From a virus, in IMG/VR virus record IMGVR_UViG_3300037193_002971, positions 1 through 25,025 of that record: 25,025 nucleotides of DNA, one strand, 5' to 3'. Of this stretch, positions 791 through 24,812 are shown in pieces. Positions within the stretch are counted from its first letter, which is position 1; every line of letters begins with the position of its first letter. Below the pieces are notes generated by a model. That model was not told the DNA's origin. It saw only the letters and a program-made list of their open reading frames with translations, and did not search any database. The position numbers and the translations under genes were made by a program.

Positions 791-3700
791 ATGGCAGAAC
801 TTGCTGTCGGAACCGAGGAAAACGGCTACCGGTTCGTCGGAGGCGATCCGGCTTCGCCAACCAGCTGGGAGCCGGCGGGCCTGAAGATCGGCACGGAGGA
901 CTCCGGCTTCCGCTTCCGCGGGGGGGACCCTTCCGACGAGGCGAGCTGGGAGCCGGTGCCGGCGAAGAAGGGCGTCCTCGACCGCATCGGCACCGAACTC
1001 GGCCAGCTGCGCGACGAGGCCTTCTCCGGCATCGAGCAGGCGGTGTCGGCCGTGAAGAACGTGAATGCCGCCGGCCAGGCGAAGCGCCTGCAGTCGACGC
1101 AGGAGCAGATCCGCGAACTGGAGCGGCGCGGCCGCGGAGACAGCATCGCGGCGCGCCAGCTGCGCGGCGAGGTGGCCAGCCTGCAGGAGCGCCTGCCCAC
1201 CACGATCGGCACCGCCGCAGAGGCCAATGCGACCGCGCAGCGCGGCTCCGAGATGGTCACCCGGCCGGCCGTGCAGAAGGTGGCGGCCGCCAAGACGCTC
1301 GGCGAGGCCTGGGACGCCTTCAAGGAGGCTCCGTACGACGTGATCGCGGGCGTGACGGCGCAGTCCCTGCCGCAGACGCTGCCGGCCCTGATCGTGGGCG
1401 CCATGGCCGGCCCTGCCGCCGGCGCGGCTGGCATGGGCCTGAGCAGCGGCGCCGTGGAATTCGGCAGTTCGCTGACGGACTTCGCCCGGGAGCAGGGCGT
1501 GAACACCGGTGACGCCAAGGCGCTGGAGGCCTTCTACTCCGACCCGCAGAAGCTGCAGGAGGGCTTGGCCTACGCGGGCAAGCGCGCCGGCATCATCGGC
1601 ACGCTGGATGCCGCTTCCGGCGGCATCGCCGGCAAGACCATCGCGCCTGCCATCAAGCGGCCGCTGGCGCGCCAGGCGGTCAACGTGCCCGCGCAGATGG
1701 GCGTGCAGGCCGCGGCCGGCGCTGCAGGTGAGGCAGGCGCGCAGCTGGCGACGAAGGGCGAGGTCGCCGCGCCCGGCCAGGTGCTGCTGGAAGCGGCGGG
1801 CGAACTGGGCGGCGCGCCGGCGGAAGTGGTGGCGTTCTCCCGCGAGGCGCGAGCGGCACTGCGGCCGCAGCCGAAGCCCGAGGACATCCTGAAGGCACCG
1901 GACGTCGATACGGCCATCCAGACGGCGCAGGAGGTGCTGGCGCTGCCGCCGCCAAGCGCGAACAGCGGAGACACCATCCTGACCACGTCCAGCGGCGAGG
2001 CAGGAACGACCGCCCAGATCGACGCAATGCGCCGGCAGCGCGAGATCCGCGAAGGCGGTAATGCGGGGCTGGGCCGCAATTCGGACATCGTGGACGTGGA
2101 TCCGAAGCCGGCACCGGGCCCAATCGTCAACGATGCCTCAGCGCTGCTGGAGCGCCAAGCTGCCGGCGACGTGCTTCCGTCGATGCTGGAGGCGCGCCGC
2201 ATGCGCACGGAGGCAGCTGACGCGGCGCAAGCTGAAGCGGCGCAGCGCCGGGAAGCCGAACTGGCCGCGATTCCCGAGCTGGCCGCGAAACAGAACACGG
2301 TGCAGGAAGCGCTCCAGCGCGCCGGCGCTGTGGAGGCGCCCACGGCGATGCAGTTGGCAATGCAGCGCGCGCGCGCCATCCCTGCTGCTGCCGAAGCCGC
2401 TGGTGCGCCAGCCGCACCGACGCAGCCAGCGCCGGTGCTCCCCCGGATCGTGGAGCGCACGCCTGAGATGGTCGCGTTGCCGCAGAAGCTCGCCGAGCAG
2501 CGCGTCGCAGCGACAGGCGGCGAGGTGGTGCGCATCAGGAACAAGTCGGGCAAGTTCGCCTTCACCGTCATCCCGAGGACTGCCGATGCGACCCAGCCAA
2601 CCTCAAGTGCCGCGTCCCCCGCGCCTGACCGCGCAGCAGCGACGCCGAGCGCGCCGGCAGAACCTGCCGCCGGACGTGCTGGCAGCGTGGGACCGGCTCC
2701 TGGTGGCGCCGCTGTCGCACCGCCTGCCGCAGTAGGCGAGCCGGCTGCGACGTGGTTTGGGCGCCGCGGCGACGGCTATCTTACGCAGGCGGATGCGGCC
2801 CTTGCGGTGCGTACGCGCGAGCGCAACAACCCGGATCTGCGCTGGGTCGTGGAGCAGATGCCTTCGGGCAAGTTCCGGCTGGCCGGGTACACCCAGGAGC
2901 AGCGGCCGACGGTTACTGCAACAGCAGTGCCGCGCCTACAATCCGATGAAGCAACTCGTGCACCCGATGAAACAGCGCCGCCGCAGACTGCTCGTCAAGA
3001 AGCCATTACCCAGGATCCTGCGCCTGAAGCTGGAAGTTCTCCGGGCCGCGTTCCCTCGACCGCTGAAGCCGGTACTGAAGGCGGCCAATCGGCGTCTGCC
3101 GATGGTCGAAACCGGGACGATCGTGTTCCGCAGGCCGGCCTGGCGGCAGGCGACCTAGCCGCCCAGCGAACCGACCAGGCGGCAGACGCCGATTCGGCGC
3201 AGGCGCGCGGCACCCAGCAGCCAGCGAAGCCGTTGGACCATGGCGAGCTGAACGTCCCCGGCCGGACGAGCCGGATCGACGCGGATCTGGATCGCTTCAA
3301 GGCCGAACAGGCGAAGGCGAAGAAGGCCGAGGCCAAGCAGATCTCCGCGCAGCGCCAGTCCGACAAGACCCGCGCCAAGGACCTGTTCGTCAAGCACTGG
3401 CCGGCCATGAAGGAGCGGATGGGCGCCCGCTTCGGCGAGAAGGCGTTGCGCGACATGCTGGACTCCATGGTCAAGTGGGAGCCGGCCAAGTTCATCGCCA
3501 TGGTGGAGAAGTTCCAGAAGGAACAGGCCGAGCGCGAGAACGACTCCGCGCAAGCGCGTGACACCGCCCAGCGCCGCTCCGACGAGCGCATGCCATCCGG
3601 CCTGACCATGGAGGAGGCGCGGCGCGCCATCCGCCGCATGCGCGGCCCCCGGGCGGGCGACGTCCAGAAGATCGTCAATGACCTGACCGCCGGCTGGAAG

Positions 3701-6700
3701 AACGGCCCGCGGATCCACGTCGTACAAACCGCGGACGACTTGCCTGGCGAGAACCCGTCGAACACCCGCGGCCTCTACGAGCGCGGCGAGATCTGGATTG
3801 TGGCCGGTTCGCTCGAGCACGGCACCCGCGCTGGCATCGCACGAACGCTCGCCCATGAAGCGGTGGCGCACTGGGGATTGCGCAACATGCTGGGCCGCGA
3901 GGCCTGGACCAAGCTGATGAACACGATCCAGCTGGGGATCAAGGCCGGCAACAAACAGCTGCGCGAGATTCAGGCCTATGTGCGCGAAACCTACGTTGAT
4001 GCCGAAGGTAACCTGTACCTGAACGAAGCACAGGAGGCCGACGAGATCGCCGCCATGGCGGTGGAAGACGCGATCGACGACGACGGCAACTTCAAGCCCG
4101 GCTTCGGCTTCCTGAAATCCGTGTGGGCGCAGGTGGCCCAGTTCCTGCGCGACCTGGGCATCAAGGTCGCCTTCAGCAACGCGCAGCTGCAGGGCATGCT
4201 GGTGCTGTCCATGCGGAACATGGAGGCGGGCCGACGCACCGCGGGCGGCGGGCAGCTGGCGGTAGCGGCGGCGCGCGAGGACGGCCGACTGAACGCCCTC
4301 GATGGTGAAGTGGCGGATGACACCCAGGCGACGGGCGCGCCGGAGGAGGACGCGTTCGAAGGCACCCAGCAAGCCCGAAGCACGATCACCGGCATCGCTC
4401 TGCCCAAGACCTGGCAGGCCCCGGACGAGTCGAAGCTGGACGACCTGATCTACACCCTGCAGGACAAGCACGTCGACACCAAGCGCGCGGTGCAGGCGGT
4501 GCGCGACTCGATCGGCGCCATCGCGGACGAGCAGGACCCCTACCTGCAGGAGGAACTGTTCCACGGGCGCGCGGCCAAGTCCACGAAGGACTTCCTGGAT
4601 AAGGAGCTTCGGCCGCTTCTCGTGGACATGCAGGCCCGCGGGGTGGAGCTCTCCGACTTCGAGGAATACCTGCACAACCGGCACGCAGAGCGCCGAAACG
4701 TGCAGGTGGCAAAGGTCAACGCCGGCATGTCCGACGGCGGCTCCGGGATCAAGACCAAGGACGCCCGCGCCTACCTGGCCGGCCTGCCGGCGGGGACGCG
4801 CCGCACCTACGAGATGCTGGCCAAGCGCGTGGATGCCATCACGAAGGCGACGCGCCAGCTGCTGGTCGACTCGGGCCTCGAGAAGCAGGAGACCATCGAT
4901 GCCTGGGATGCCGCCTACGGCGACGAGTACGTGCCGCTCATGCGGGAGGAGATGGACGACGGCCGCGCCGGCCTCGGGCAGGGCTACAGCGTCCGCGGCT
5001 CCGCGTCGAAGCGCGCCATGGGAAGCGACAAGCCGGTGGCCGACATCATCGCCAACATTGCCATGCAGCGCGAGCGCACCATCACCCGCGCGCAGAAGCG
5101 CCGAATCGGTGAGGCCCTGTACGGGCTGGTGCTGAAGGCTCCCAACGATGACTTCTGGATCGCGGTGGACCCCGCGCTGCAGCAGGACCCCAAGCAAGTG
5201 ATGCAGACGCAGCTGCAACTGATCACCATGGGGCTGGATCCGGCGGACGCCGAGAGCATCGCGAAAGAACCGACCCAGCGCTATGTCGACCCGCGCACCA
5301 AGCAGGTGGCCGAGCGCATCAACCCAGCGCTGCGCAGCGCCGACAACGTGCTGGCGGTCCGGGTCAACGGCGATGACAAGTTCGTCTTCTTCAACGCCCG
5401 CGACCCGCGCGCGATGCGCATGGTCACCGCCTTGAAGAACCTGGACGCCGACCAGCTCGGCACGGCCATGGGGTATGTGGCGAAGATGACGCGCTGGTTC
5501 GCCTCGGTGAATACCCAGTTCAACCCGATCTTCGGCATCACCAACCTCACGCGCGACGTCCAGGGCGCGCTGCTGAACCTGACTTCCACTCCGCTGGCTG
5601 CCCACAAGGCGGAAGTGGCAAACCACGTTCTTCCGGCGTTGCGCGGGATCTACATCGACCTGCGCGACCACCGTGCTGGCAAGACGCCAACGTCATCCTG
5701 GGCCCAGCTGTTCGAGGAATTCCAGCGGGAGGGCGGCGCCACCGGCTATCGCGACATGTACGCCAACGCGGCCGAGCGCGCCGACGGGATCGTGTCGGAG
5801 CTGCGTTCGATCAAGAGCGGCCGAGCCTTCAAGCTCGCCAAGGGCGTTTTCGACTGGCTGTCCGACTACAACGAGTCGATGGAAAACGCTGTCCGGGTGT
5901 CGGCCTACAAGGTCGGCGTAGAGCAGGGCCTCACGAAGCAGCAGGCCGCCAGCCTGGCCAAGAACCTGACGGTGAACTTCAACCGCAAGGGCCAGGTGGC
6001 GCTGCAGGCGGGCGCGCTGTACGCCTTCTTCAACGCATCGGCCCAGGGCACTGCGCGCCTCGCGCAGACGCTGTTCAAGGACGGCAAGCTGTCCGCGGCC
6101 GGCCAGAAGATCATCGCCGGCGGCCTGCTGCTGGGGGTGATGCAGGCGCTGTTGCTCGCGGCCGTCGGCTTCGACGAGGACGAGCCGCCCGACTTCGTGC
6201 GGGAGCGCTCCCTGGTGATCCCGATCTCCGGGACGAAGTACATCGCGATTCCGATGCCGCTTGGGTACCACGTCATCCCCAACCTTGGCCGCATCCCGAC
6301 CGAATGGGCGATGTCCGGTTTCAAGAACACGACGAAGCGGATCGCGCAGCTGGTCGGGGTGTTCGTCGACGCGTTCAACCCGATCGGCAATGCCGGCCTG
6401 TCGCTGCAAACGATCGCCCCGACGGTGATCGATCCGCTGGCCGCCCTGGCTGAGAACAAGGACTGGACCGGAAAGCCGATCGCCAAGAAGGACTTCGACG
6501 CGAACCGGCCCACCGCCGGCCACACCCGGGCGAAGGACACGGCAACGCCCTGGGCCAAGATGATCTCCTACGGGGTGAATATCGCCACGGGCGGCACCGA
6601 CTACAAGCCGGGCCTGGCGAGTCCAACGCCGGACCAGATCGACTACCTGATCGGCCAGGTGACCGGCGGCGTCGGCCGCGAAGTGAGCAAGCTGGCGCAG

Positions 6701-7102
6701 TCGGCCAGCGGCGCGATGTCGGGCGAGGACGTGCCGCTGCACAAGATCCCGCTGGTGGGCCGCTTCGTCGGCACCACTGAGGGTCAGGCCGCGGAGGCTG
6801 CGCGCTACTACGACAACCTGCGCGAGATCGGCTCCCACAAGGTGCAGATCGACGGGCTTCGAAAGGACGGCCGCGGCGCCGAGATCAGCGCCTACGTGCG
6901 CGAGAACAGCGCGGCCACCCTGGTGCCGATGGCTACCGCGATCCAGCGAGAGGTTACCGAGCTGCAGCACCGCAAGCGCGACCTGATCAAGAAAGACGCC
7001 CCGCCCGAGCGTGTGAAGCTGGTCGACCAGCAGATCACCAGCAGGATGAAGCTGCTGAACGACCGGGCGCGCAAGCTCGAAAAGGCGGCGGTCGCGCCCT
7101 AG
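791..7102 (+). CDS. Giant internal virion protein with LPD38-type domain (2103 aa)
   Basis: This very long late protein resembles the large polyvalent proteins of phages, thought to be carried in the capsid or ejected with DNA. The ATG at 791 follows AAGG at suitable spacing. Residues 6-29 and 33-56 are a tandem repeat, each with G-T-E, G-G-D-P and S-W-E-P. Residues of about 180-230 are Gly/Ala-rich and hydrophobic. Residues of about 540-890 are Ala/Pro/Gln-rich linker. Around 1022-1029 is H-E-A-V-A-H-W-G, a metallopeptidase-like HExxxH pattern seen in such proteins but not canonical HExxH. From about 1570 the sequence N-P-I-F-G-I-T-N-L-T-R-D fits LPD38. A hydrophobic helix lies near 1775-1795. 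The C-terminus is helical and charged. Assignment to LPD38 is from memory of the family; the enzymatic role is unknown. Confidence 0.85.
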   Translation: MAELAVGTEENGYRFVGGDPASPTSWEPAGLKIGTEDSGFRFRGGDPSDEASWEPVPAKKGVLDRIGTELGQLRDEAFSGIEQAVSAVKNVNAAGQAKRLQSTQEQIRELERRGRGDSIAARQLRGEVASLQERLPTTIGTAAEANATAQRGSEMVTRPAVQKVAAAKTLGEAWDAFKEAPYDVIAGVTAQSLPQTLPALIVGAMAGPAAGAAGMGLSSGAVEFGSSLTDFAREQGVNTGDAKALEAFYSDPQKLQEGLAYAGKRAGIIGTLDAASGGIAGKTIAPAIKRPLARQAVNVPAQMGVQAAAGAAGEAGAQLATKGEVAAPGQVLLEAAGELGGAPAEVVAFSREARAALRPQPKPEDILKAPDVDTAIQTAQEVLALPPPSANSGDTILTTSSGEAGTTAQIDAMRRQREIREGGNAGLGRNSDIVDVDPKPAPGPIVNDASALLERQAAGDVLPSMLEARRMRTEAADAAQAEAAQRREAELAAIPELAAKQNTVQEALQRAGAVEAPTAMQLAMQRARAIPAAAEAAGAPAAPTQPAPVLPRIVERTPEMVALPQKLAEQRVAATGGEVVRIRNKSGKFAFTVIPRTADATQPTSSAASPAPDRAAATPSAPAEPAAGRAGSVGPAPGGAAVAPPAAVGEPAATWFGRRGDGYLTQADAALAVRTRERNNPDLRWVVEQMPSGKFRLAGYTQEQRPTVTATAVPRLQSDEATRAPDETAPPQTARQEAITQDPAPEAGSSPGRVPSTAEAGTEGGQSASADGRNRDDRVPQAGLAAGDLAAQRTDQAADADSAQARGTQQPAKPLDHGELNVPGRTSRIDADLDRFKAEQAKAKKAEAKQISAQRQSDKTRAKDLFVKHWPAMKERMGARFGEKALRDMLDSMVKWEPAKFIAMVEKFQKEQAERENDSAQARDTAQRRSDERMPSGLTMEEARRAIRRMRGPRAGDVQKIVNDLTAGWKNGPRIHVVQTADDLPGENPSNTRGLYERGEIWIVAGSLEHGTRAGIARTLAHEAVAHWGLRNMLGREAWTKLMNTIQLGIKAGNKQLREIQAYVRETYVDAEGNLYLNEAQEADEIAAMAVEDAIDDDGNFKPGFGFLKSVWAQVAQFLRDLGIKVAFSNAQLQGMLVLSMRNMEAGRRTAGGGQLAVAAAREDGRLNALDGEVADDTQATGAPEEDAFEGTQQARSTITGIALPKTWQAPDESKLDDLIYTLQDKHVDTKRAVQAVRDSIGAIADEQDPYLQEELFHGRAAKSTKDFLDKELRPLLVDMQARGVELSDFEEYLHNRHAERRNVQVAKVNAGMSDGGSGIKTKDARAYLAGLPAGTRRTYEMLAKRVDAITKATRQLLVDSGLEKQETIDAWDAAYGDEYVPLMREEMDDGRAGLGQGYSVRGSASKRAMGSDKPVADIIANIAMQRERTITRAQKRRIGEALYGLVLKAPNDDFWIAVDPALQQDPKQVMQTQLQLITMGLDPADAESIAKEPTQRYVDPRTKQVAERINPALRSADNVLAVRVNGDDKFVFFNARDPRAMRMVTALKNLDADQLGTAMGYVAKMTRWFASVNTQFNPIFGITNLTRDVQGALLNLTSTPLAAHKAEVANHVLPALRGIYIDLRDHRAGKTPTSSWAQLFEEFQREGGATGYRDMYANAAERADGIVSELRSIKSGRAFKLAKGVFDWLSDYNESMENAVRVSAYKVGVEQGLTKQQAASLAKNLTVNFNRKGQVALQAGALYAFFNASAQGTARLAQTLFKDGKLSAAGQKIIAGGLLLGVMQALLLAAVGFDEDEPPDFVRERSLVIPISGTKYIAIPMPLGYHVIPNLGRIPTEWAMSGFKNTTKRIAQLVGVFVDAFNPIGNAGLSLQTIAPTVIDPLAALAENKDWTGKPIAKKDFDANRPTAGHTRAKDTATPWAKMISYGVNIATGGTDYKPGLASPTPDQIDYLIGQVTGGVGREVSKLAQSASGAMSGEDVPLHKIPLVGRFVGTTEGQAAEAARYYDNLREIGSHKVQIDGLRKDGRGAEISAYVRENSAATLVPMATAIQREVTELQHRKRDLIKKDAPPERVKLVDQQITSRMKLLNDRARKLEKAAVAP

Positions 7103-10162: not shown

Positions 10163-11329
10163 TCAATTGATGCTCACCAGCTTGAATTCCGCCCCGCGCC
10201 CGTCCTCGTAAAGCGCGGCCATGTCGTCGGTCCTGTGGCCCAGCAGGTCCTTGGTATCCACGCCGCCCTGGGCCTCGTACAGCCGCTTGGACAGGCTTCG
10301 CAGCTCGTGAAACGTGGGCGGCGTCTTGTCGCCCCAGTTCAGCCCGAGCTTTTCCGTCAGGTCGTCCATCGCTTCGGTGAAATCCTTGCTCAGGCGGTCG
10401 ACCATGTAGGGGTCGCCCAACCGGGCGCCTTTCACCCGCTGGTGCACGTGGACCATGTACTTGCTGGCCACGCCGGTGGCGCGACACTGGCGAATCACCT
10501 CGCGCAGGCTCATGCCGAAGGCGTCCAGCCGCAGGTCCAGCGGGATGGCGATCTTCGCGCCGGTCTTGCCGCGGGTGGCTTTCCAGCATTCCACCGGCTC
10601 CAGGCCAGGGCGGTCCACCATCCCGACGTCGGTGAACTTGCCGGCGCAGACCACCTCCCGCGGCTGGCCGCTCACCAGCGCCAAGGCGGTGGCGTTCTTC
10701 AGGCGGCCGGGCGGCATGCGCTCGTACAGCGCCTGGAAGATCTCCCATGTCAGGCGGGCACGCTGCACCTTCACGGTCACGTCGTCGGTGACGGTGACCG
10801 GGTTGCTCTCCGTCCAGCCCTCGGCGATAGCCGAATCGAAGCTGTGCAGCAGGCGTGAGCGCATGGCCTGGGCGGTTCGGGCGTTCGTTGCCTTCAGCAC
10901 CCTCAGCCCATCCGCGATGATCTTCGTGGTCACCCTGGGCAGCGGCAGGTCCAGCGACTCGGCGTAGACCTCTCGGATCTTCTTGACCAGCGTTCGGTAG
11001 GTCTTGAGCGTGTTGATCGACAGGGCCGGCGCATCTGCCGGGCGCGGCGCGTCCTTGAGCAGGCCGAGCTTCTTCTCGTACTCGACCAGCCACGCGCGCC
11101 AGCTGGTGTCCGACTTTCCCAGCAGGCGGTCGACCAGCCGCGGCTTGTTCTGGAGACCATGAACGGCAATGTTGGCCTCGGACGCCTGCGCCTTGGCCTC
11201 GCCGAGCGTCACCCGGCCGATGCCCATTTCCTTGCCCGTCAGGGGATTGCGCCAGCTGAAATAGCCTCCCCGCTCATAGAGACCGTCCGGCCACCCGCGC
11301 TTCTTCGTGCTACGCGGGCGAGAGGCCAT
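10163..11329 (-). CDS. int: Lambda-type tyrosine integrase (388 aa) with an altered first catalytic arginine
   Basis: Catalyses site-specific integration and excision. The N-terminus (W-P-D-G-L-Y-E-R, then P-L-T-G-K-E-M-G-I-G-R) matches the lambda Int arm-binding domain. A core-binding domain spans about residues 75-180 and the catalytic domain follows. Visible catalytic residues by alignment to lambda Int are Lys255, His341 and Arg344 (H-E-L-R-S-L-S), His365 (L-L-G-H-R) and nucleophile Tyr374 (A-L-Y-E-D). At the place of lambda Arg212 (T-G-Q-R) this protein has S-G-Q-P-R, so Pro223 occupies the catalytic position and an arginine follows at 224. The length is normal. The start overlaps the xis gene by 20 bases, as expected for a coupled int-xis pair. 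Confidence 0.92.
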   Translation of the reverse strand: MASRPRSTKKRGWPDGLYERGGYFSWRNPLTGKEMGIGRVTLGEAKAQASEANIAVHGLQNKPRLVDRLLGKSDTSWRAWLVEYEKKLGLLKDAPRPADAPALSINTLKTYRTLVKKIREVYAESLDLPLPRVTTKIIADGLRVLKATNARTAQAMRSRLLHSFDSAIAEGWTESNPVTVTDDVTVKVQRARLTWEIFQALYERMPPGRLKNATALALVSGQPREVVCAGKFTDVGMVDRPGLEPVECWKATRGKTGAKIAIPLDLRLDAFGMSLREVIRQCRATGVASKYMVHVHQRVKGARLGDPYMVDRLSKDFTEAMDDLTEKLGLNWGDKTPPTFHELRSLSKRLYEAQGGVDTKDLLGHRTDDMAALYEDGRGAEFKLVSIN

Positions 11330-17240: not shown

Positions 17241-18145
17241 GCCGCCTCCCGAATCGCGTTGATCACGTCGCACGCCACCGGCGGGCAGACAGCGTTCCCA
17301 AACATGAAGGTGGCCAGCGTGATGCTGTCCGGGTACAGGTAGCCGTTGGGGAACCCCATGAAGCCGCAGGTTTCGGCCGCCATCAGCATGCGCATCCGGT
17401 CGCCATCTACCACGCCCCAGCGGTTCTTCGTGGTGATCGCGCCGATTGGGCGGCGCAGACAGCGGCCGGTCAGCCCCGATCCGCTCCCGTAGTAGGGCAT
17501 CACGAACCGGGTGCCAAAGCAGGCGCGACCCCTGGCAACGCGAGCGCGGGTCGCCGGCACCTTGTCCGCGACCTGCGTCCAATTGCCGGCGGCGAAGTCG
17601 ATCACATCGGCGGCAGGCACGTGCGAGCGCTGCGGCAGCTTCAGCTCGATCGGGTGCTTCGACCTGGTGCCGACGATGAACAGCCGGCGGCGATGCTGAG
17701 GAACGCCATGGTCCGCGGCGTCCAGGATCATCGGCGCCAGGGCGTAGCCGAGCGCGTGCATCGCGGCGCACCACGCGGGGAACAGGATCCATCGGCTGTA
17801 CTCGGGGACGTTCTCCACCAGCACAACGGGCGGGCGGTGGCACTCCGCGGCGCTAACCACGGCCCACGCGGTGGAGCGCTGGGCGTCATGATGCGGCCGC
17901 TCCTTGCCGCGGGCCCGGCTGTGACCCTGGCAAGCCGGCGACGCCATCAACAGGTCGTGCGCAGGCACGACCGTCCAGTCGGCCTGCTGCAGGTCCTGGC
18001 ACACGTGCTCCGTTTCCGGGTGGTTGTTCGCGTGCACCTGCACGGCCGCAGGCCAGTGGTTGGCGGCCCAGACCACGCGGCAGCCGGCCATCTTGGCGCC
18101 GGTGCTGAAGCCGCCGGCTCCGGCGAACAGGTCGATCGCTCGCAT
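17237..18145 (-). CDS. dcm: C5-cytosine DNA methyltransferase (302 aa)
   Basis: Transfers a methyl group from SAM to carbon 5 of cytosine in DNA. Conserved motifs are in order: motif I D-L-F-A-G-A-G-G-F (5-13), motif IV S-P-A-C-Q with nucleophile Cys72, motif VI E-N-V (111-113), motif VIII Q-H-R-R-R-L-F (150-156) and motif X G-N-A-V (283-286). Motif IV reads P-A-C rather than the usual P-P-C. The length is near the lower end for the family, with a short target-recognition region. No endonuclease gene is adjacent, so it is probably a solitary enzyme protecting phage DNA. The ATG at 18145 shares one base with the TGA of the reverse transcriptase, so it is translationally tied to the DGR. Confidence 0.9.
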   Translation of the reverse strand: MRAIDLFAGAGGFSTGAKMAGCRVVWAANHWPAAVQVHANNHPETEHVCQDLQQADWTVVPAHDLLMASPACQGHSRARGKERPHHDAQRSTAWAVVSAAECHRPPVVLVENVPEYSRWILFPAWCAAMHALGYALAPMILDAADHGVPQHRRRLFIVGTRSKHPIELKLPQRSHVPAADVIDFAAGNWTQVADKVPATRARVARGRACFGTRFVMPYYGSGSGLTGRCLRRPIGAITTKNRWGVVDGDRMRMLMAAETCGFMGFPNGYLYPDSITLATFMFGNAVCPPVACDVINAIREAA

Positions 18146-19521
18146 CAGGAGTTCACTTTCTTGTAGATCTTCGACAGGTCACCAGCCACCACATGCCCGC
18201 GCTTCAGCAGCACGCGCGCGATGGCGGCCTGTTCGTTGTGGCTGTGGCTGGCCTGGCGCACCAGACCGAGGTAGCTGTTCCCCGCCTGGAACACCTCGTC
18301 GGCCGGCATCTGCTGCAGCCGGCGCATTCCGCCGACCAGCGTGCGGCGCCTCGTCGTGCGCCGCCACGGCTTCACGATGTGGCCGACGAAGTCGATGCCG
18401 CGCGCCACCGGCTGCAGGATGGTCTTCGCGTCATTGAGCCGGGCGCCCAGGCGCGCCGGCAGGAATTCCCGGATCCGCGCGTGCGCCGTGTTCAGCCAGC
18501 TCGCGTCGTGGTGCAGCAGCACGAAGTCGTCGACGTAGCGCACGTAGTGGCGCGCGCGCACCTGGTGCTTGCAGAACTGGTCCAGCGCGTCCAGGTGCAC
18601 ATTGGCGAAGAACTGCGACGACAGGTTGCCGATCGGCAGGCCGGTGTTGGCCGGCGCGTTGAACAGGCTCTTGTGCGGCGGCACCTTGGCCAGCAGCTCG
18701 GCGCGGCCGCGCAGTTCCACGTTCTCGCGCGGATCGTGGAAGAGAACCTGGCCGGCCAGCCACAGCCACCAGGGCTCATGGATCTTCCTGGCCAGCTGCT
18801 CGTGCAATACGTTCTTGTCGATCGCGACGAAGAAGTTGGCCAGGTCGCACTTCAGGTAGTGGGCGGGGCGGCTCCAGTTCTCGGTGACGCTGCGCACGCT
18901 GGCCTCGAGCCGGCGCGCCGCGTAGAGCGTGCCGCGGCCTGGGATGCAGGCGCTGCTGCCGGCATCAAAGCTGGTGTGGAAGCGCGCCGCCACGTGGTTG
19001 TACAGGAGGTGGTGCACGATCCGGTCGCGGAAGTCGGCCGCCCACACCTCGCGCGGCTTCGGCCGCGTGATGACGAAACAGATGGAGCGGCCGGGGCGGT
19101 AGGTGCCCGCGGCCAGCTCCTCGAACAGCGCGCAGAGGTTCGCCTCGAGGTGGGCCTCGAATGCGAGGGCGCTGGCGGTGTTGCGCTTGTGCTGGCGGCA
19201 GTCCAGATAGGCCTGCACGAGCGCGGAGAACGAAAAGCTTGGATCTGCGGACGGCGCGGGCACGCGCCTCGAACTTCTTGTTGTTGTTGTTCTGGTTGCC
19301 GTTGTTGAAGTTCTGGTTCCAGGCGTTGTTGCTGGCGTACTGCGTTTGTTCGCGCTATCCACGTCGCCCTGCCGGAGGCCTGCGCCGACCAGCGGGGAAA
19401 CTGCGCCGGACCGGTCCTGCCTGCGGGCAGCGGTATCCGTGATGCGCATGGCGGTGCCCTCGTGAGGCAGCGGCGCGACCAGATTCAATGTGCGCTCGGG
19501 CATGTGGGCCGTGACCGTCAT
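18145..19521 (-). CDS. DGR reverse transcriptase (458 aa in the longest supported form)
   Basis: Copies the template RNA into cDNA with adenine-directed errors. The RT domain covers about residues 95-430: catalytic Asp226 in K-C-D-L-A-N-F-F, I-G-N-L-S-S-Q at 297-303 (the IGxxxSQ form typical of DGR enzymes, in place of QGxxxSP), and Y-V-D-D at 329-332. There is no maturase or endonuclease domain, so it is not a group II intron. The ATG at 19521 overlaps the avd stop as ATGA and is my choice. M25 at 19449, or a GTG inside or just after the TR, are alternatives because residues 1-95 lack family features. Residues 60-92 are the TR read in another frame and form a Thr/Arg-rich stretch. It ends in a one-base overlap with the methyltransferase gene. 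Confidence 0.93.
   Translation of the reverse strand: MTVTAHMPERTLNLVAPLPHEGTAMRITDTAARRQDRSGAVSPLVGAGLRQGDVDSANKRSTPATTPGTRTSTTATRTTTTRSSRRVPAPSADPSFSFSALVQAYLDCRQHKRNTASALAFEAHLEANLCALFEELAAGTYRPGRSICFVITRPKPREVWAADFRDRIVHHLLYNHVAARFHTSFDAGSSACIPGRGTLYAARRLEASVRSVTENWSRPAHYLKCDLANFFVAIDKNVLHEQLARKIHEPWWLWLAGQVLFHDPRENVELRGRAELLAKVPPHKSLFNAPANTGLPIGNLSSQFFANVHLDALDQFCKHQVRARHYVRYVDDFVLLHHDASWLNTAHARIREFLPARLGARLNDAKTILQPVARGIDFVGHIVKPWRRTTRRRTLVGGMRRLQQMPADEVFQAGNSYLGLVRQASHSHNEQAAIARVLLKRGHVVAGDLSKIYKKVNS
19247..19345 (-). repeat. DGR template repeat (TR), 99 bp
   Basis: In the coding direction this is 33 codons, eleven of them AAC, followed by a G+C-rich constant end encoding K-K-F-E-A-R-A-R-A-V-R. 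I count 33 adenines. It is 89% identical to VR1 (11 differences) and 83% to VR2 (17 differences), with differences almost only at adenines. Identity with VR2 runs four bases further, to 19243. It lies between avd and the RT domain, the order known from phage BPP-1, but here inside a frame open to the RT. Confidence 0.96.
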
Positions 19522-19883
19522 GCTGCAGGCGCCTTTTCGCGGGTCTTGGACATCCAGCCATTGGCCTGCTTGCCTATGCTGTCCAGCATCTCCACCGACC
19601 GCGCCCAGGGTTTCGTGGACACGGCGCGCAGGTCCAGCGCAACGCGCAGCCACACGGTGGCGGCTCGCACGTGCGTGAGGATCTGGCCGATGTGTGCCGC
19701 GCGCTGAGCACCCCTGGTGGCGTTTGCCAGCGCCATCAGGTCCAGCATTTCCGAGCAGTGGCTGACGATCTTGTCGCCCACCGTGCGCTTGAAGCCGCGA
19801 GGCATCTGCGCTTGGATGGTGGCGGCGAGACCGAGCAGCTCGCTTCCGGTCCTGTGAATCGGCAGTTGGTGGTGCAGGGCCAT
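19518..19883 (-). CDS. avd: Avd-like accessory variability protein (121 aa)
   Basis: Avd proteins are small, basic four-helix bundles that form a pentamer, bind the template RNA and the reverse transcriptase, and are required for mutagenic homing. This 121-residue protein is all-helical and basic, with helices over about 12-30, 33-55, 60-85 and 90-115 (A-A-T-I-Q-A-Q-M-P-R-G-F-K-R-T-V-G-D-K-I is typical of the first loop). The size matches the family of about 120-130 residues. Position immediately upstream of the TR and RT agrees with BPP-1. The start at 19883 has no Shine-Dalgarno; 17 bases separate it from the stop of the VR2 gene, a stretch occupied by the octamer repeats, so coupled translation is likely. 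Its TGA overlaps the RT ATG. Confidence 0.87.
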   Translation of the reverse strand: MALHHQLPIHRTGSELLGLAATIQAQMPRGFKRTVGDKIVSHCSEMLDLMALANATRGAQRAAHIGQILTHVRAATVWLRVALDLRAVSTKPWARSVEMLDSIGKQANGWMSKTREKAPAA

Positions 19884-19886
19884 TTG

Positions 19887-19910
19887 GAAGGACTAAAGGA
19901 TCAAAGAATC
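19887..19910. repeat. Three tandem degenerate octamers after VR2
   Basis: On the plus strand three consecutive 8-base units of the form (A/G)AAG(G/A)A(C/T)(C/T) lie between VR2 and avd. They include the stop codon of the VR2 gene (19901-19903). A related tract follows VR1 at 20507-20530. The TR has no such tract. Confidence 0.65.
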
Positions 19911-20494
19911 AATCTGCGGACGGCGCGGGCACGCGCCTCGAACTTCTTGCCGCCGTTGCTCTGGGTGCCGTGGAAGAAGCCCTGGAGCCAGGCGCCGTTG
20001 CTGGCGCCCTGCGTACTCGTCAGGTACCACTCCTTCTCGAACAGCTCGGGCACGTTGCACCACAGGAGGCGCGATTCGATCCGCGACGGCAGGTAAAAGT
20101 CGCTGTGGCCATCGATCTCCAGCGCCAGGATCTCGCGGCACAGGTCGCTGCCGGCTTGCGCGAATGCCTTCGTGTTGGCGAGGCCGTCATGGTCGCTGGC
20201 CGCGCCTTCCACCTCGGTACCGTAGGTGCCGATCGCGCGCTTTGTGAAGACGGACTTCGGATCGGTCGCTAGCACCAGGTGGTAGTCCGGCGCGCCGTCG
20301 CGGCCGCGCATCAAGCCGGCGTAGATGCCGCCCTGGCCAGCCCAGTACTCGCCGATGGCCGGCGGCACGGGCTTGCCCGTGGGCGCCGTGGTGATCTCCG
20401 CTTCCGGGGCGCTGCCGAACTCCGCGAGCGCAGAGAGCAACGCTGCGCCGAAGCCGGGCACGCTCAGGTGGATGTTGACGTTCTGGATGTGCAT
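19901..20494 (-). CDS. DGR target 2: DUF1566/C-type-lectin-like variable protein (197 aa)
   Basis: Starts at the ATG at 20494, with AGGAGG four bases further upstream. The N-terminal 120 residues are unrecognised (N-I-H-L-S-V-P-G-F-G). The C-terminal part follows the DUF1566 plan: D-F-Y-L-P-S-R, then E-W-Y-L-T-S-T-Q, then the variable stretch and R-A-R-A-V-R-R. VR2 covers residues 161-193. Compared with the template-encoded protein it differs at codon 3 (Y to G) and at nine of eleven Asn codons (G, L, G, F, H, T, S, G, G). It has no signal peptide or membrane segment, so it acts in the cytoplasm or in virions. It is 27 bases downstream of the other target and 17 upstream of avd. The ligand is unknown. 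Confidence 0.9.
   Translation of the reverse strand: MHIQNVNIHLSVPGFGAALLSALAEFGSAPEAEITTAPTGKPVPPAIGEYWAGQGGIYAGLMRGRDGAPDYHLVLATDPKSVFTKRAIGTYGTEVEGAASDHDGLANTKAFAQAGSDLCREILALEIDGHSDFYLPSRIESRLLWCNVPELFEKEWYLTSTQGASNGAWLQGFFHGTQSNGGKKFEARARAVRRLIL
19916..20014 (-). repeat. DGR variable repeat 2 (VR2), 99 bp
   Basis: Ungapped match to the TR over 33 codons with 17 differences. Sixteen are at template adenines; one is T to G at 20008, the first base of codon 3. The last 33 bases, corresponding to the initiation-of-mutagenic-homing side, are identical to the TR. Identity extends four bases further, to 19912. Confidence 0.96.
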
Positions 20495-20506
20495 TTCCCC
20501 TCCTGA

Positions 20507-20530
20507 AAAGGATTGAAGGATTTAAGGATT
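20507..20530. repeat. Three tandem octamers after VR1
   Basis: Three exact-length 8-base units, each NAAGGATT on the plus strand, start 12 bases after the end of VR1 and contain the stop codon of the VR1 gene (20522-20524). They abut the Shine-Dalgarno of the next gene. The related tract after VR2 is more degenerate. Confidence 0.75.
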
Positions 20531-21136
20531 GAGCTGAATCAAGCGGACGGCGCGGGCACGCGCCTCGAACTTCTTGCTGAGGCTGCCCTGGCTGCCGTCG
20601 TTGAAGTGCTGGCTCCAGGCGTCGTTGCTGGCGTACTGCGTGGAGCTCCAGTACCAGACGGGGTCGAAGGCCTCGGCCCCACCTTCGCGGAAGGCCTCAG
20701 CCGCGGTCTGCGCCGGCAGCTGCTCGGTGTAGGGATAGCCGGCCGGCAGGCTGCTCGGGTTGTCGCCGTCGCGGAAACTGGTGCTGTTCTCGTAGGTGGT
20801 GGGCTTCAGGTAGCGGTAGCCCAGCTCCAGAACGTCGCGCGCCGGGATGCACCAGTCGGTCTTGCCGTTGATGTCCAACCCGCGCGCCCACTGTCCCAGC
20901 GGGCTGCCGGCTTCGGCCATCGCCACGGTGTTGTCCATGCTGTGGAAGCAGCTGGTGGCGTTCGGCACGTCCTTGTAGCTGGGGAGCCAGATCATGGACG
21001 TCTCGCCGAGTGCCTTGGGCGCCCAAACAACGGCGAAGATCTTCTCGCCGCTGCGGATGCGGCCGCCGTAGAAGCCGCCTTCGAAGGGCGTGCCGTGTTC
21101 TGCGGGGACGAGGATGGAAGGGTTGTCGACGTTCAC
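20522..21136 (-). CDS. DGR target 1: DUF1566/C-type-lectin-like variable protein (204 aa, GTG start)
   Basis: I start at the GTG at 21136, which has AGGAG six bases upstream; the open frame runs further but only as shadow of the upstream gene. The protein is a DUF1566 domain: W-C-I-P-A-R-D-V-L-E-L near residue 95, then W-Y-W-S-S-T-Q-Y-A-S and the variable part, ending R-A-R-A-V-R-L-I. VR1 is residues 166-198. Against the template product, nine of eleven Asn codons are changed (D, S, H, D, S, G, S, L, S); Asn6 and Asn14 are kept. These positions are the surface-loop sites of the C-type-lectin fold used by DGR proteins to bind ligands. It has no signal peptide or membrane helix. It is 44 bases after the stop of the preceding gene in the recombination operon. 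Confidence 0.92.
   Translation of the reverse strand: MNVDNPSILVPAEHGTPFEGGFYGGRIRSGEKIFAVVWAPKALGETSMIWLPSYKDVPNATSCFHSMDNTVAMAEAGSPLGQWARGLDINGKTDWCIPARDVLELGYRYLKPTTYENSTSFRDGDNPSSLPAGYPYTEQLPAQTAAEAFREGGAEAFDPVWYWSSTQYASNDAWSQHFNDGSQGSLSKKFEARARAVRLIQLNP
20543..20641 (-). repeat. DGR variable repeat 1 (VR1), 99 bp
   Basis: Ungapped match to the TR over 33 codons with 11 differences, every one at a template adenine (66 non-adenine positions, none changed). The constant 33-base end is identical. Changed codons are 7, 10, 12, 15, 17, 19, 20, 21 and 22. Confidence 0.97.
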
Positions 21137-21180
21137 AGGGTTCTCCTGGTTGGGGTGTGATGTGTTCGTGAAATAGGCGG

Positions 21181-21932: not shown

Positions 21933-23693
21933 TCAGGCGGCTTGCTGCTGGCGGTGCAGCGCGCGCACGTAGTCGACGTGGTGCAGCAGGGCGGTGCAGA
22001 TCTCGTCGAACTCGTGCTCGGAGAACTTCGTGGCGGAGCGGTCCTTCTCTCCGGCCACGCCCAGCTTCTCGGTGACGAACGCAGCGGGCAGGGTGAAGCC
22101 AAGGCGCTGAGCGACGCTGGTCAGGGTGAGCGTGCGCGCTGCGGACTGGGCTGGCGCCCGGGTGGGCATGGGGATGACGGCGGGGCTGGGGGCGGGCGTA
22201 CTGGCCGCTGCATCCCGGTCCTCGCGCTGCTTCCGCTCCTGCGCCTCGATGAGCTCGCGACGCTGCGCTGCTTCCTGCTCCTCGCGCTGGCGGCGCTCCG
22301 CGTCCTCGCGCTCCTGCTGCTCTCGGGCCGCGGCGGCGCGCGCCTTGGCTTCTTCCTCGGCTCTGATCTTCTGCCGTTCGGCCTCCAGCAGGCGTTCCTC
22401 CGCCGCCTTGTGCTCCGCGATCCGCGCCGCCACCAGTGCCTGCAGGTCGTCCGCTGCCTTCAGCACGATGGTGCCGACGTCCGGGAACAACTGCTTGTGC
22501 TCGCTGGCGTGCTCGCGCAGGTGGCGCAGGTTCATCGTGATCCGGCCGGCGATCTCGTTCGCCTTAAGCTTGCAATCAGCCAGGTGCTGGTCGATCGAAT
22601 CGCGCAGGCTTTGGACCGTCTTCTTGCCCTTGATCGCGGTCGGGAAGTCGTTGTCGACCTGCGGCATGTACGGCTTGCCGATCTGTGTGTTCAGACCGGC
22701 GATGTGTTCCGCGAGCGCCTGCTTGCCGCGTTCGATCTCTTCCCTGCGGATCTCCAGCTTGCGCGCTTCCACCAGTTTCTCGCGCTGCAGCCGGGTGTCG
22801 CGCGCCAGCTTGTGCAGGGTTGCCTTCAGCCGGCGCATCTGTTCGAAAGACTCCAGGCTCGCCAGTGCTGATTCCTCCTGCGCGTCCAGTGCTTCCTCCA
22901 CCTTCTTCAGCGCCTTGCAGGCGGCTTCGGCGTGCGCGAATTCCTCGTCGGTGGATGGCTTGGCCGGGATGCAGTCGATGTAGGCGCGCAGGGCCGGCGC
23001 CAGCACGTCCAGGTTGGAGATGACCCGAAGCGTGCCTTCCATCCGCACGCTCACGACCGGCAGGGCCTCCATCGGCGGGGCGACGGCCTTCGGCGGGGCC
23101 GGCGTGTGGTCGCCATGCTCCAGGTCGTGGTTGAACTGCGCCCAGCCGGCGCGCAGTTGCTCGGCGCGGCCCGGCACCCGCCGGTACTCCATCTGGACGC
23201 GACGCTCTTCGGTGCCGTCCGAGCAGACGAAGATCACCCGCTCGGCCTGGTTCGCCACGATCAGCTGCTGCTCCAGCTGCCATTCCTGGCCGTCGGGAAA
23301 TTCGGTGGCGCCAGCACGGATCGCGGCAGCCAATTCTTCATTCCACTGCTTGTGTTCGAAGATCGTGTCTTCGACCATCGTGATGCCGTCCAGGCTGGCG
23401 AGCATCGAGTCGTCGTCAGCTACCGCGGTGGCGGGATACAGTTCCTCGTCCAGCTGCTGCTCGGTAATGGCGCGCGCCGGCCGCTCCACCTGGTGTCCCT
23501 TGTCCAGAACCATTCGCTGGACGAAGTCGCTGAACTCCTTCTCCATGCCAGCGGACTTCAGCCGCAGCATCTCGGCACGCGTCATGTGGCGGCTGGCGCC
23601 CATGATGATCGGTGCCTCGCTGGCGCAGGGGTACTTTGAGCGGACAGCCTTCCACTCCGGAGAGCCTTGGATGAGTCCTTCCAGAATTCGCAT
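21933..23693 (-). CDS. YqaJ-type (lambda exonuclease-like) recombinase nuclease with long coiled-coil tail (586 aa)
   Basis: The N-terminal 220 residues are a PD-(D/E)XK nuclease of the YqaJ/lambda Exo family: Q-G-S-P-E-W-K-A-V-R, then S-L-D-G-I with Asp102, and F-E-H-K-Q-W with Glu113 and Lys115. It should resect double-stranded ends to produce 3' tails for RecT. The remaining 350 residues are unusual: helical, with a long charged Glu/Arg/Gln coiled coil at about 425-500 and a Pro/Ala linker before the end. The start at 23693 has AAGGA seven bases upstream and lies 12 bases after the RecT stop. Lambda Exo is only about 226 residues, so more than half of this protein is extra. Confidence 0.85.
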   Translation of the reverse strand: MRILEGLIQGSPEWKAVRSKYPCASEAPIIMGASRHMTRAEMLRLKSAGMEKEFSDFVQRMVLDKGHQVERPARAITEQQLDEELYPATAVADDDSMLASLDGITMVEDTIFEHKQWNEELAAAIRAGATEFPDGQEWQLEQQLIVANQAERVIFVCSDGTEERRVQMEYRRVPGRAEQLRAGWAQFNHDLEHGDHTPAPPKAVAPPMEALPVVSVRMEGTLRVISNLDVLAPALRAYIDCIPAKPSTDEEFAHAEAACKALKKVEEALDAQEESALASLESFEQMRRLKATLHKLARDTRLQREKLVEARKLEIRREEIERGKQALAEHIAGLNTQIGKPYMPQVDNDFPTAIKGKKTVQSLRDSIDQHLADCKLKANEIAGRITMNLRHLREHASEHKQLFPDVGTIVLKAADDLQALVAARIAEHKAAEERLLEAERQKIRAEEEAKARAAAAREQQEREDAERRQREEQEAAQRRELIEAQERKQREDRDAAASTPAPSPAVIPMPTRAPAQSAARTLTLTSVAQRLGFTLPAAFVTEKLGVAGEKDRSATKFSEHEFDEICTALLHHVDYVRALHRQQQAA

Positions 23694-23705
23694 GATTCGG
23701 TCCTT

Positions 23706-24812
23706 TCAGAAAGCAAGCTTTTCGCCGCGCTCGTCGGCGATGCGGGTGAGTTCGCCGCGCTGGCCTTCGTCGGCGATCTGTTCGATGAGTTCCTTGGCCG
23801 CGTCCAGCTGGTCGTGGTCCTCGGACTTCTGGATCGCGTCGGCGATCACGGCATAGGTGACCTTGGGCGTCACGTCCTGCACCTGGCTCGCAGGGCTGGC
23901 GGCCGTTGCCGCAGGCGCGGAGGTGGGCGACGGCGCGGCCGCGGCCTTGATGGCGCGGATCTCCGCCTTCTGCGCGTCGGTGAGCGGCGCCTTCGCCTCC
24001 ACCGTGGCGATGACCTCGTCGGCTGTCTTGCGCCCGGCCTCGATCAGCTTCCTCCAGGCGGGGAGGTTCTTGGCGAAGGCGGCCTGGTCGTAGGCGGCTG
24101 GGGGCGCGGGTGGCAGGACCTCGGCCGGGCCCATGAACTTCTCGTTCGGCTCAGCGAGTTCGTCAGGCGTGTAGACGCCGAGGATCACGTCCGGGGCGTA
24201 CAGCCGCGACCAGCGCTTCTGCGCCAGGTAGGCGATCTGCTGCTTCGGGTCCTCGGTCCAGAGCGTGCTGTTGCGGGTACGCGCCTGGGTCATAAGCAGT
24301 TCAAGGACGCGCGGCTCGCGCTCGCCCTTCAGCGTGGCCCAGACCCTCACGCCCAGGCCGCGTTCGTCTTCCTGCTTCCAGTCCGGAACGATGAACTTCT
24401 TCGGTCGGCCGTTGTCGTCGGTCTTGGTCTTGCTCTCGACCTCCTTGAACTTGCCGACGATCTTTTCCCACTCGCCGAACCATTCGAAGTGGAACCGGTC
24501 CTGCACCGCGCCGCTGCTGTTGATCACCGCGGACACGAGCTGCGCCTCGTAGCCCAGAGTGCCATTTACCAGGTGCGTCTTCTGCGCCACCGAGAAGGGA
24601 TTCATGCCCCACTGCATGGACTGCAGCGCGATGGCGAAGCAGTCGCCCTTGCTGCCGCGCAGGTGCTGCGGGACGGTAGTCTTGCCGCTGGCCATCAGGT
24701 CGGCGATGCGTTCCAGCCGCTCCATGCTGGCTTCGTGCAGCAGGAGCGCGCCAGCGGAGGCGCTGCTGGCGACGGCCAGGGCGGTGTTCTCGGACGGGTT
24801 CGGTGCGTTCAT
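23706..24812 (-). CDS. recT: RecT family single-strand annealing recombinase (368 aa)
   Basis: Binds single-stranded DNA and promotes annealing and strand invasion with the partner exonuclease. Diagnostic features are the A-L-Q-S-M-Q-W-G-M-N-P-F block followed by L-G-Y-E-A-Q-L-V and, further on, W-A-T-L-K-G near residue 180 and the T-R-N-S-T-L-W segment. The C-terminus has an Ala/Pro-rich linker and a helical acidic tail. Length fits the larger RecT proteins. The start at 24812 has GAGA a few bases upstream. The pair recT-yqaJ is a standard phage recombination module. Confidence 0.88.
   Translation of the reverse strand: MNAPNPSENTALAVASSASAGALLLHEASMERLERIADLMASGKTTVPQHLRGSKGDCFAIALQSMQWGMNPFSVAQKTHLVNGTLGYEAQLVSAVINSSGAVQDRFHFEWFGEWEKIVGKFKEVESKTKTDDNGRPKKFIVPDWKQEDERGLGVRVWATLKGEREPRVLELLMTQARTRNSTLWTEDPKQQIAYLAQKRWSRLYAPDVILGVYTPDELAEPNEKFMGPAEVLPPAPPAAYDQAAFAKNLPAWRKLIEAGRKTADEVIATVEAKAPLTDAQKAEIRAIKAAAAPSPTSAPAATAASPASQVQDVTPKVTYAVIADAIQKSEDHDQLDAAKELIEQIADEGQRGELTRIADERGEKLAF

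Follow-up and report, generated by a model that had tools for sequence, protein, structure and literature searches.

Organization of the locus

The window analysed here, meaning the whole stretch of 25,025 nt, is a 25-kb virus fragment from IMG/VR, probably derived from a temperate phage. Its minus strand carries, in this order, two VR-bearing target genes, avd, a template repeat (TR) and a reverse transcriptase (RT) gene (Table 1). The RT frame matches phrog_1423 (E 2e-110), RVT_1 and the bRT structure of BPP-1 (8ub7, E 2e-40), and it contains the YVDD and IGNLSSQ sequence motifs. The avd product scores 28.4 bits against Pfam bAvd, which is under the cut-off of 40. One TR serves two tandem target genes (19901-21151), each of which matches phrog_4245 (function not annotated); on checking the target fold, we found a lectin fold annotated for a DGR target of Burkholderia phage Magia. 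At the other end of the locus, the stop codon of the RT shares bases with the start codon of a C5 cytosine methylase gene (TGATG, 18145-18148). Together with the ATGA overlap between avd and RT, this suggests that translation of avd, RT and methylase may be coupled. Other genes in the window encode an integrase, a RecE-like exonuclease, a RecT-like annealase and a 2103-aa ORF, phrog_14770 (10163-11329, 21933-24812 and 791-7102).

Table 1. Positions of the DGR features in the window
Feature	Position	Strand	Remarks
DGR reverse transcriptase frame from ATG1	18145..19521	-	458 aa; 434 aa with ATG3 start (19449)
Coding linker, TR end to RT domain	19231..19246	-	~16 nt
Template repeat (TR), 99 nt	19247..19345	-	Thr/Arg-rich RT residues ~59-92, VR+1 frame
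RT-15 structured RNA (RF03018)	19343..19534	-	175.5 bits; overlaps avd end and RT codons 1-59
ATG3 of RT	19447..19449	-	ATG in 80/109 frame-open relatives; GAGG Shine-Dalgarno 8 nt upstream
ATG2 of RT	19501..19503	-	ATG in 78/109 frame-open relatives
ATG1 of RT	19519..19521	-	overlaps avd stop; ATG in 63/109 frame-open relatives
avd	19518..19883	-	phrog_3206, E 1e-20; TGA stop overlaps ATG1 of RT (ATGA)
VR1	19916..20014	-	in target gene 19901-20494; phrog_4245
VR2	20543..20641	-	in target gene ending 20522 (start about 21151); phrog_4245

With the bounds of the TR set by A-only mismatches to the VRs (an A-tolerant TR), all 11 mismatches to VR2 and 16 of the 17 to VR1 fall at template adenines (27/28 for both VRs pooled). 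The last 34 nt of the TR show zero mismatches to either VR, forming a conserved 3' end of the IMH type. An adenine-specific TR/VR pair, a DGR-type RT, Avd and a shared IMH-type 3' end are thus all present, placing the locus among the DGRs. In nearly all relatives the anchor GCCGTCCGCAGA is found beside the TR, with up to 3 mismatches allowed. The segment between avd and the TR (19346-19521) is not an empty spacer: it is filled by RT-15 RNA, whose covariance match is full length, exceeds the gathering score of 82 and abuts the TR start.

Conservation of the reading frame

A sequence-only reading of the window had claimed that the RT frame runs from an ATG overlapping the avd stop through the TR into the RT domain, and that the TR would therefore also encode a Thr/Arg-rich part of the RT. 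Both statements hold, as no stop occurs between ATG 19521 and 18145 and the TR falls within the frame (Table 1). However, openness in the window alone had to be rejected as evidence, because this 97-codon frame also stays open in 29% of the sequences obtained by dinucleotide shuffling of 19231-19521 (P = 0.29). In other words, openness in a single genome is unremarkable, and it is the behaviour of the relatives that exceeds chance.

About 330 homologous loci were collected from phage records, IMG/VR and bacterial genomes. Removal of duplicates and the requirement that the TR have a VR partner left 159 RT clusters (93%). Of the 159 clusters, 111 have an RT frame without interruption between the avd stop and the RT, against 0 and 5 for the other two frames, although these counts are non-independent owing to conserved stops within RT-15. 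RT-15 itself lies within the RT frame in 110/159 clusters. Stops between avd and RT in homologous elements had been named in the sequence-only reading as evidence that would count against it, and such relatives do exist: 49 clusters have no open route from an upstream ATG. Nevertheless, all of them offer an ATG in the RT frame, either within the TR or beyond it, and we therefore read them from their sequences as lineages in which the start has moved. Openness of the TR among frame-open loci was discarded as evidence, since it is circular by definition and a value of 0.90 is expected given the protein encoded in the VR frame.

We mapped segment lengths by parsimony on an RT tree (FastTree, no branch support analysis). 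Between the TR end and the RT, 39 of 43 length changes mapped in this way across the 159 clusters are multiples of three, namely 32/36 outside the Pseudomonas-phage clade (p = 7e-12) and 7/7 inside it; this linker test is independent of how loci were classified. Each of the four non-triplet exceptions (L033, L098, L134 and L178) has an ATG after the TR. An indel test restricted to open loci proved circular and was redone by clade. Upstream of the TR the clades differ sharply. Triplet changes account for 24/29 of those between RT-15 and the TR outside the Pseudomonas-phage clade versus 2/10 inside (Fisher 7e-4), and for 13/20 versus 1/15 of those within RT-15 (6e-4). This is as expected if the RT of that clade starts inside the TR, which would relieve the segment before it of the need to stay in frame. 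Four frame-open loci (L094, L098, L130 and L235) have non-triplet anchor distances in RT-15, possibly because the anchors were misplaced.

Selection at the codon level was assessed by comparing pN/pS in three frames for 48 independent pairs of frame-open loci. In the stretch between ATG3 and the TR, the RT frame gives 0.72 (CI 0.65-0.81) against 0.98 and 1.11, being the lowest in each of 1000 bootstraps; for the linker the values are 0.61 in the RT frame and 1.32 and 1.09 in the other two. Within the TR it is the VR frame that is constrained (0.34), whereas the RT frame reaches 1.18, which indicates that what the TR keeps in the RT frame is just its open phase. By these ratios, the upstream peptide is weakly selected and the peptide encoded by the TR is unselected. 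No RT-frame signal was detected upstream of the TR in the clade with TR-internal starts, where only 12 pairs were available. AlphaFold with 33 full-length homologues returned a confident RT from residue ~93, with pLDDT near 27-34 for residues 1-92, which are accordingly predicted to be disordered. Since model confidence begins at about residue 93, the onset of the RT fold would coincide with the end of the TR-encoded part, and the N-terminal tail would seem to be tolerated rather than folded or needed.

Judging from these patterns, the RT frame across RT-15 and the TR is really kept in the relatives and is almost certainly translated. The further proposal of the sequence-only reading, that the same sequence is both template for the RT and part of its coding sequence, gains support from the triplet length changes, from codon-frame selection and from the absence of downstream starts in relatives, to which we turn below.

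The RT-15 RNA is maintained along with the frame. Its scores range from 98 to 188 bits across loci, translated or not, and it persists where it is untranslated (L002, L006, L033 and L144). In an alignment of 37 upstream-start loci, compensatory double changes occur at 33 of 48 predicted pairs. Covariation in read-through relatives combined with persistence in untranslated ones argues that the fold of the RNA is maintained, and the reading frame as well. A BPP-1-like RNA spacer within the 5' codons of the RT was not found, four-fold sites there varying as elsewhere.

Choice of the start site

A start at the ATGA at 19521, from which the sequence-only reading ran the frame, is possible, but ATG 19503 and especially ATG 19449 are equally available. 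ATG3 has the best Shine-Dalgarno sequence of the window starts (-6.4 kcal/mol) and corresponds by homology to the start annotated for the RT of Burkholderia phage Magia. The idea of one universal start with a Shine-Dalgarno sequence was rejected, as ATG1, ATG2 and ATG3 are each missing from some relatives. Between the TR end and RT residue 10, no ATG, GTG or TTG is present in 60/159 clusters. L011, the closest relative (84% identity), lacks all three codons over the whole stretch from the beginning of the TR to RT residue 10; barring a rarer start codon, translation of its RT must therefore begin upstream.

Three RT start states are seen among the relatives: upstream of, inside or after the TR. 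The annotation of RTs in the clade is likewise inconsistent, with annotated starts at all three places. In Pseudomonas-phage DGRs (L067, L082, L106, L110 and others) the TR lies at about -124 to -20 from the RT. An ATGATG inside the TR directly follows an in-frame TGA in this clade, and the linker is still in frame. It arises in the VR+1 frame from GAT GAT G codons, the 3' half of the TR being coding, and most RTs of the clade appear to start there. In more distant relatives the RT mostly starts after the TR, and the upstream start is therefore probably the derived state.

Proposed mechanism and alternatives

We consider it very probable that translation of the RT sets out from an ATG that precedes the TR and passes through RT-15 and the TR. 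The start would be ATG 19521, 19503 or 19449, the last being best supported by its Shine-Dalgarno sequence, and ribosomes would cross the RT-15 RNA and then the TR before reaching the RT domain. The segment would thus have three jobs: as mRNA for the first ~70-92 residues of the RT, as the RT-15 fold, probably recruiting RT and Avd, and as the template whose adenines are randomised into VR1 and VR2. The product would be an RT with a disordered basic tail, made from the same transcript that is folded and copied. A more tentative extension, which we regard as possible though rather doubtful, is a self-regulating switch. RT and Avd would bind RT-15, which holds the RT's own Shine-Dalgarno sequence and start codon, so that a transcript is either translated or copied, and nascent RT would prefer its own mRNA. 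Binding of RT-Avd to RT-15 might then shut off RT translation. If the switch were true, one sequence would be mRNA, structured RNP scaffold and template.

Other readings of the locus have to be weighed against upstream translation. A start of the RT at GTG 19218, downstream of the TR, is unlikely; on this view the upstream openness would be a matter of chance in GC-rich DNA and the TR would be non-coding as in BPP-1. This GTG (+12, RT domain residue 5) occurs in the window and in about 66/159 clusters, and the chance of openness is not small (0.29). The residues of the TR peptide are not conserved, distant relatives mostly begin just after the TR, and in BPP-1 the frame crosses the TR without a stop even though the annotated brt start follows it. 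However, GTG 19218 has no Shine-Dalgarno sequence in the window (+1.2 kcal/mol), a start there would cut the first RT helix, and the codon is missing in L011, while the 60 clusters mentioned above have no start after the TR at all. Moreover, linker length should then be free, yet its changes are overwhelmingly triplets.

A start inside the TR has a precedent in the Pseudomonas-phage clade, where a TGA followed by ATG ATG is combined with an in-frame linker. For the window it is very improbable: its TR has no in-frame ATG, only GTG 19263 with a weak Shine-Dalgarno sequence (-1.8), the TR of L011 has no start codon, and both the triplet conservation and the RT-frame selection upstream of the TR would be left unexplained. 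We give hardly any credence to the view that upstream translation is only a leader, serving RNA access or avd-RT coupling, with re-initiation at the RT and no fused tail. Although the ATGA overlap with the avd stop suggests coupling and the tail peptide is weakly conserved, a leader has no need of phase or continuity with the RT, yet phase is kept across segments of very different length. Under translation from upstream of the TR, the template RNA must remain an mRNA, and one DNA sequence is constrained as VR-frame template, as RNA fold and as RT coding sequence. With starts before, within and beyond the TR, the clade might then serve as a set of natural experiments on the sharing of a single RNA by translation and reverse transcription.

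Comparison with known systems

Overlap of TRs with annotated RT ends was tabulated in the DiGReF survey of 2012 (PMC3521204). For its structural group 3, overlap with annotated ORFs only is recorded, and the section consulted describes no test of frame maintenance or translation. In the literature covered, which did not include Weinberg 2017 (on RT-15) or Wu 2018 (a survey of DGRs), we came across no previous account of frame conservation, of RT-15 in DGR template RNA or of TR-internal starts. A translated TR itself has been stated once before, for the ACA phages; what is new here is the clade-wide evidence, the Rfam structured RNA embedded in the RT frame and the three start-site states. The Rfam entry for RT-15, with the same full-length match, describes an sRNA, whereas here the element joins avd to the TR inside the RT frame.

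The DGR of BPP-1 (mtd-avd-TR-brt) shares with this locus the avd-TR-RT order, the A-directed VR/TR differences and a homologous RT. Its TR has 134 nt and sits 144 nt ahead of the brt start as annotated, and a structured spacer 3' of the TR recruits bRT-Avd (PMC12875486). In BPP-1 (L342) no stop interrupts the brt frame over the 741 nt that precede the RT core, a stretch that includes the TR, although the annotated start lies 42 nt upstream. The layout with a non-coding TR and a structured spacer 3' of it is not what we find here. Instead, the structured RNA is located 5' of the TR, the gap between TR and RT domain is only ~16 coding nt, and downstream synonymous sites are without extra constraint. 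This suggests that RT-15 is the 5' domain of a DGR template RNA, whereas the structured spacer of BPP-1 flanks the TR on its other side.

By contrast, the locus does agree with the ACA type, in having an RT frame that starts upstream of the TR and is maintained in relatives. In Pseudoalteromonas phages ACA1 and ACA2, the TR was stated to be translated as an N-terminal extension of the RT (PMC10612066), and in VHML-like Vibrio phage DGRs, too, the TR is within the RT reading frame. This second lineage comprises Vibrio and Pseudoalteromonas loci (L344, L346, L349-L363 and L375). With the start positions of loci open beyond -340 disregarded, an ATG some 12 nt ahead of the TR, and no later start, is present in 13 of the ACA/VHML-like loci. 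Their RT is about 33% identical to the one described here and is separated from the TR by a coding spacer of ~141 nt. Since relatives outside the ACA/VHML-like clade mostly start after the TR, the placement of the TR within the RT frame seems to have arisen at least twice, separately.
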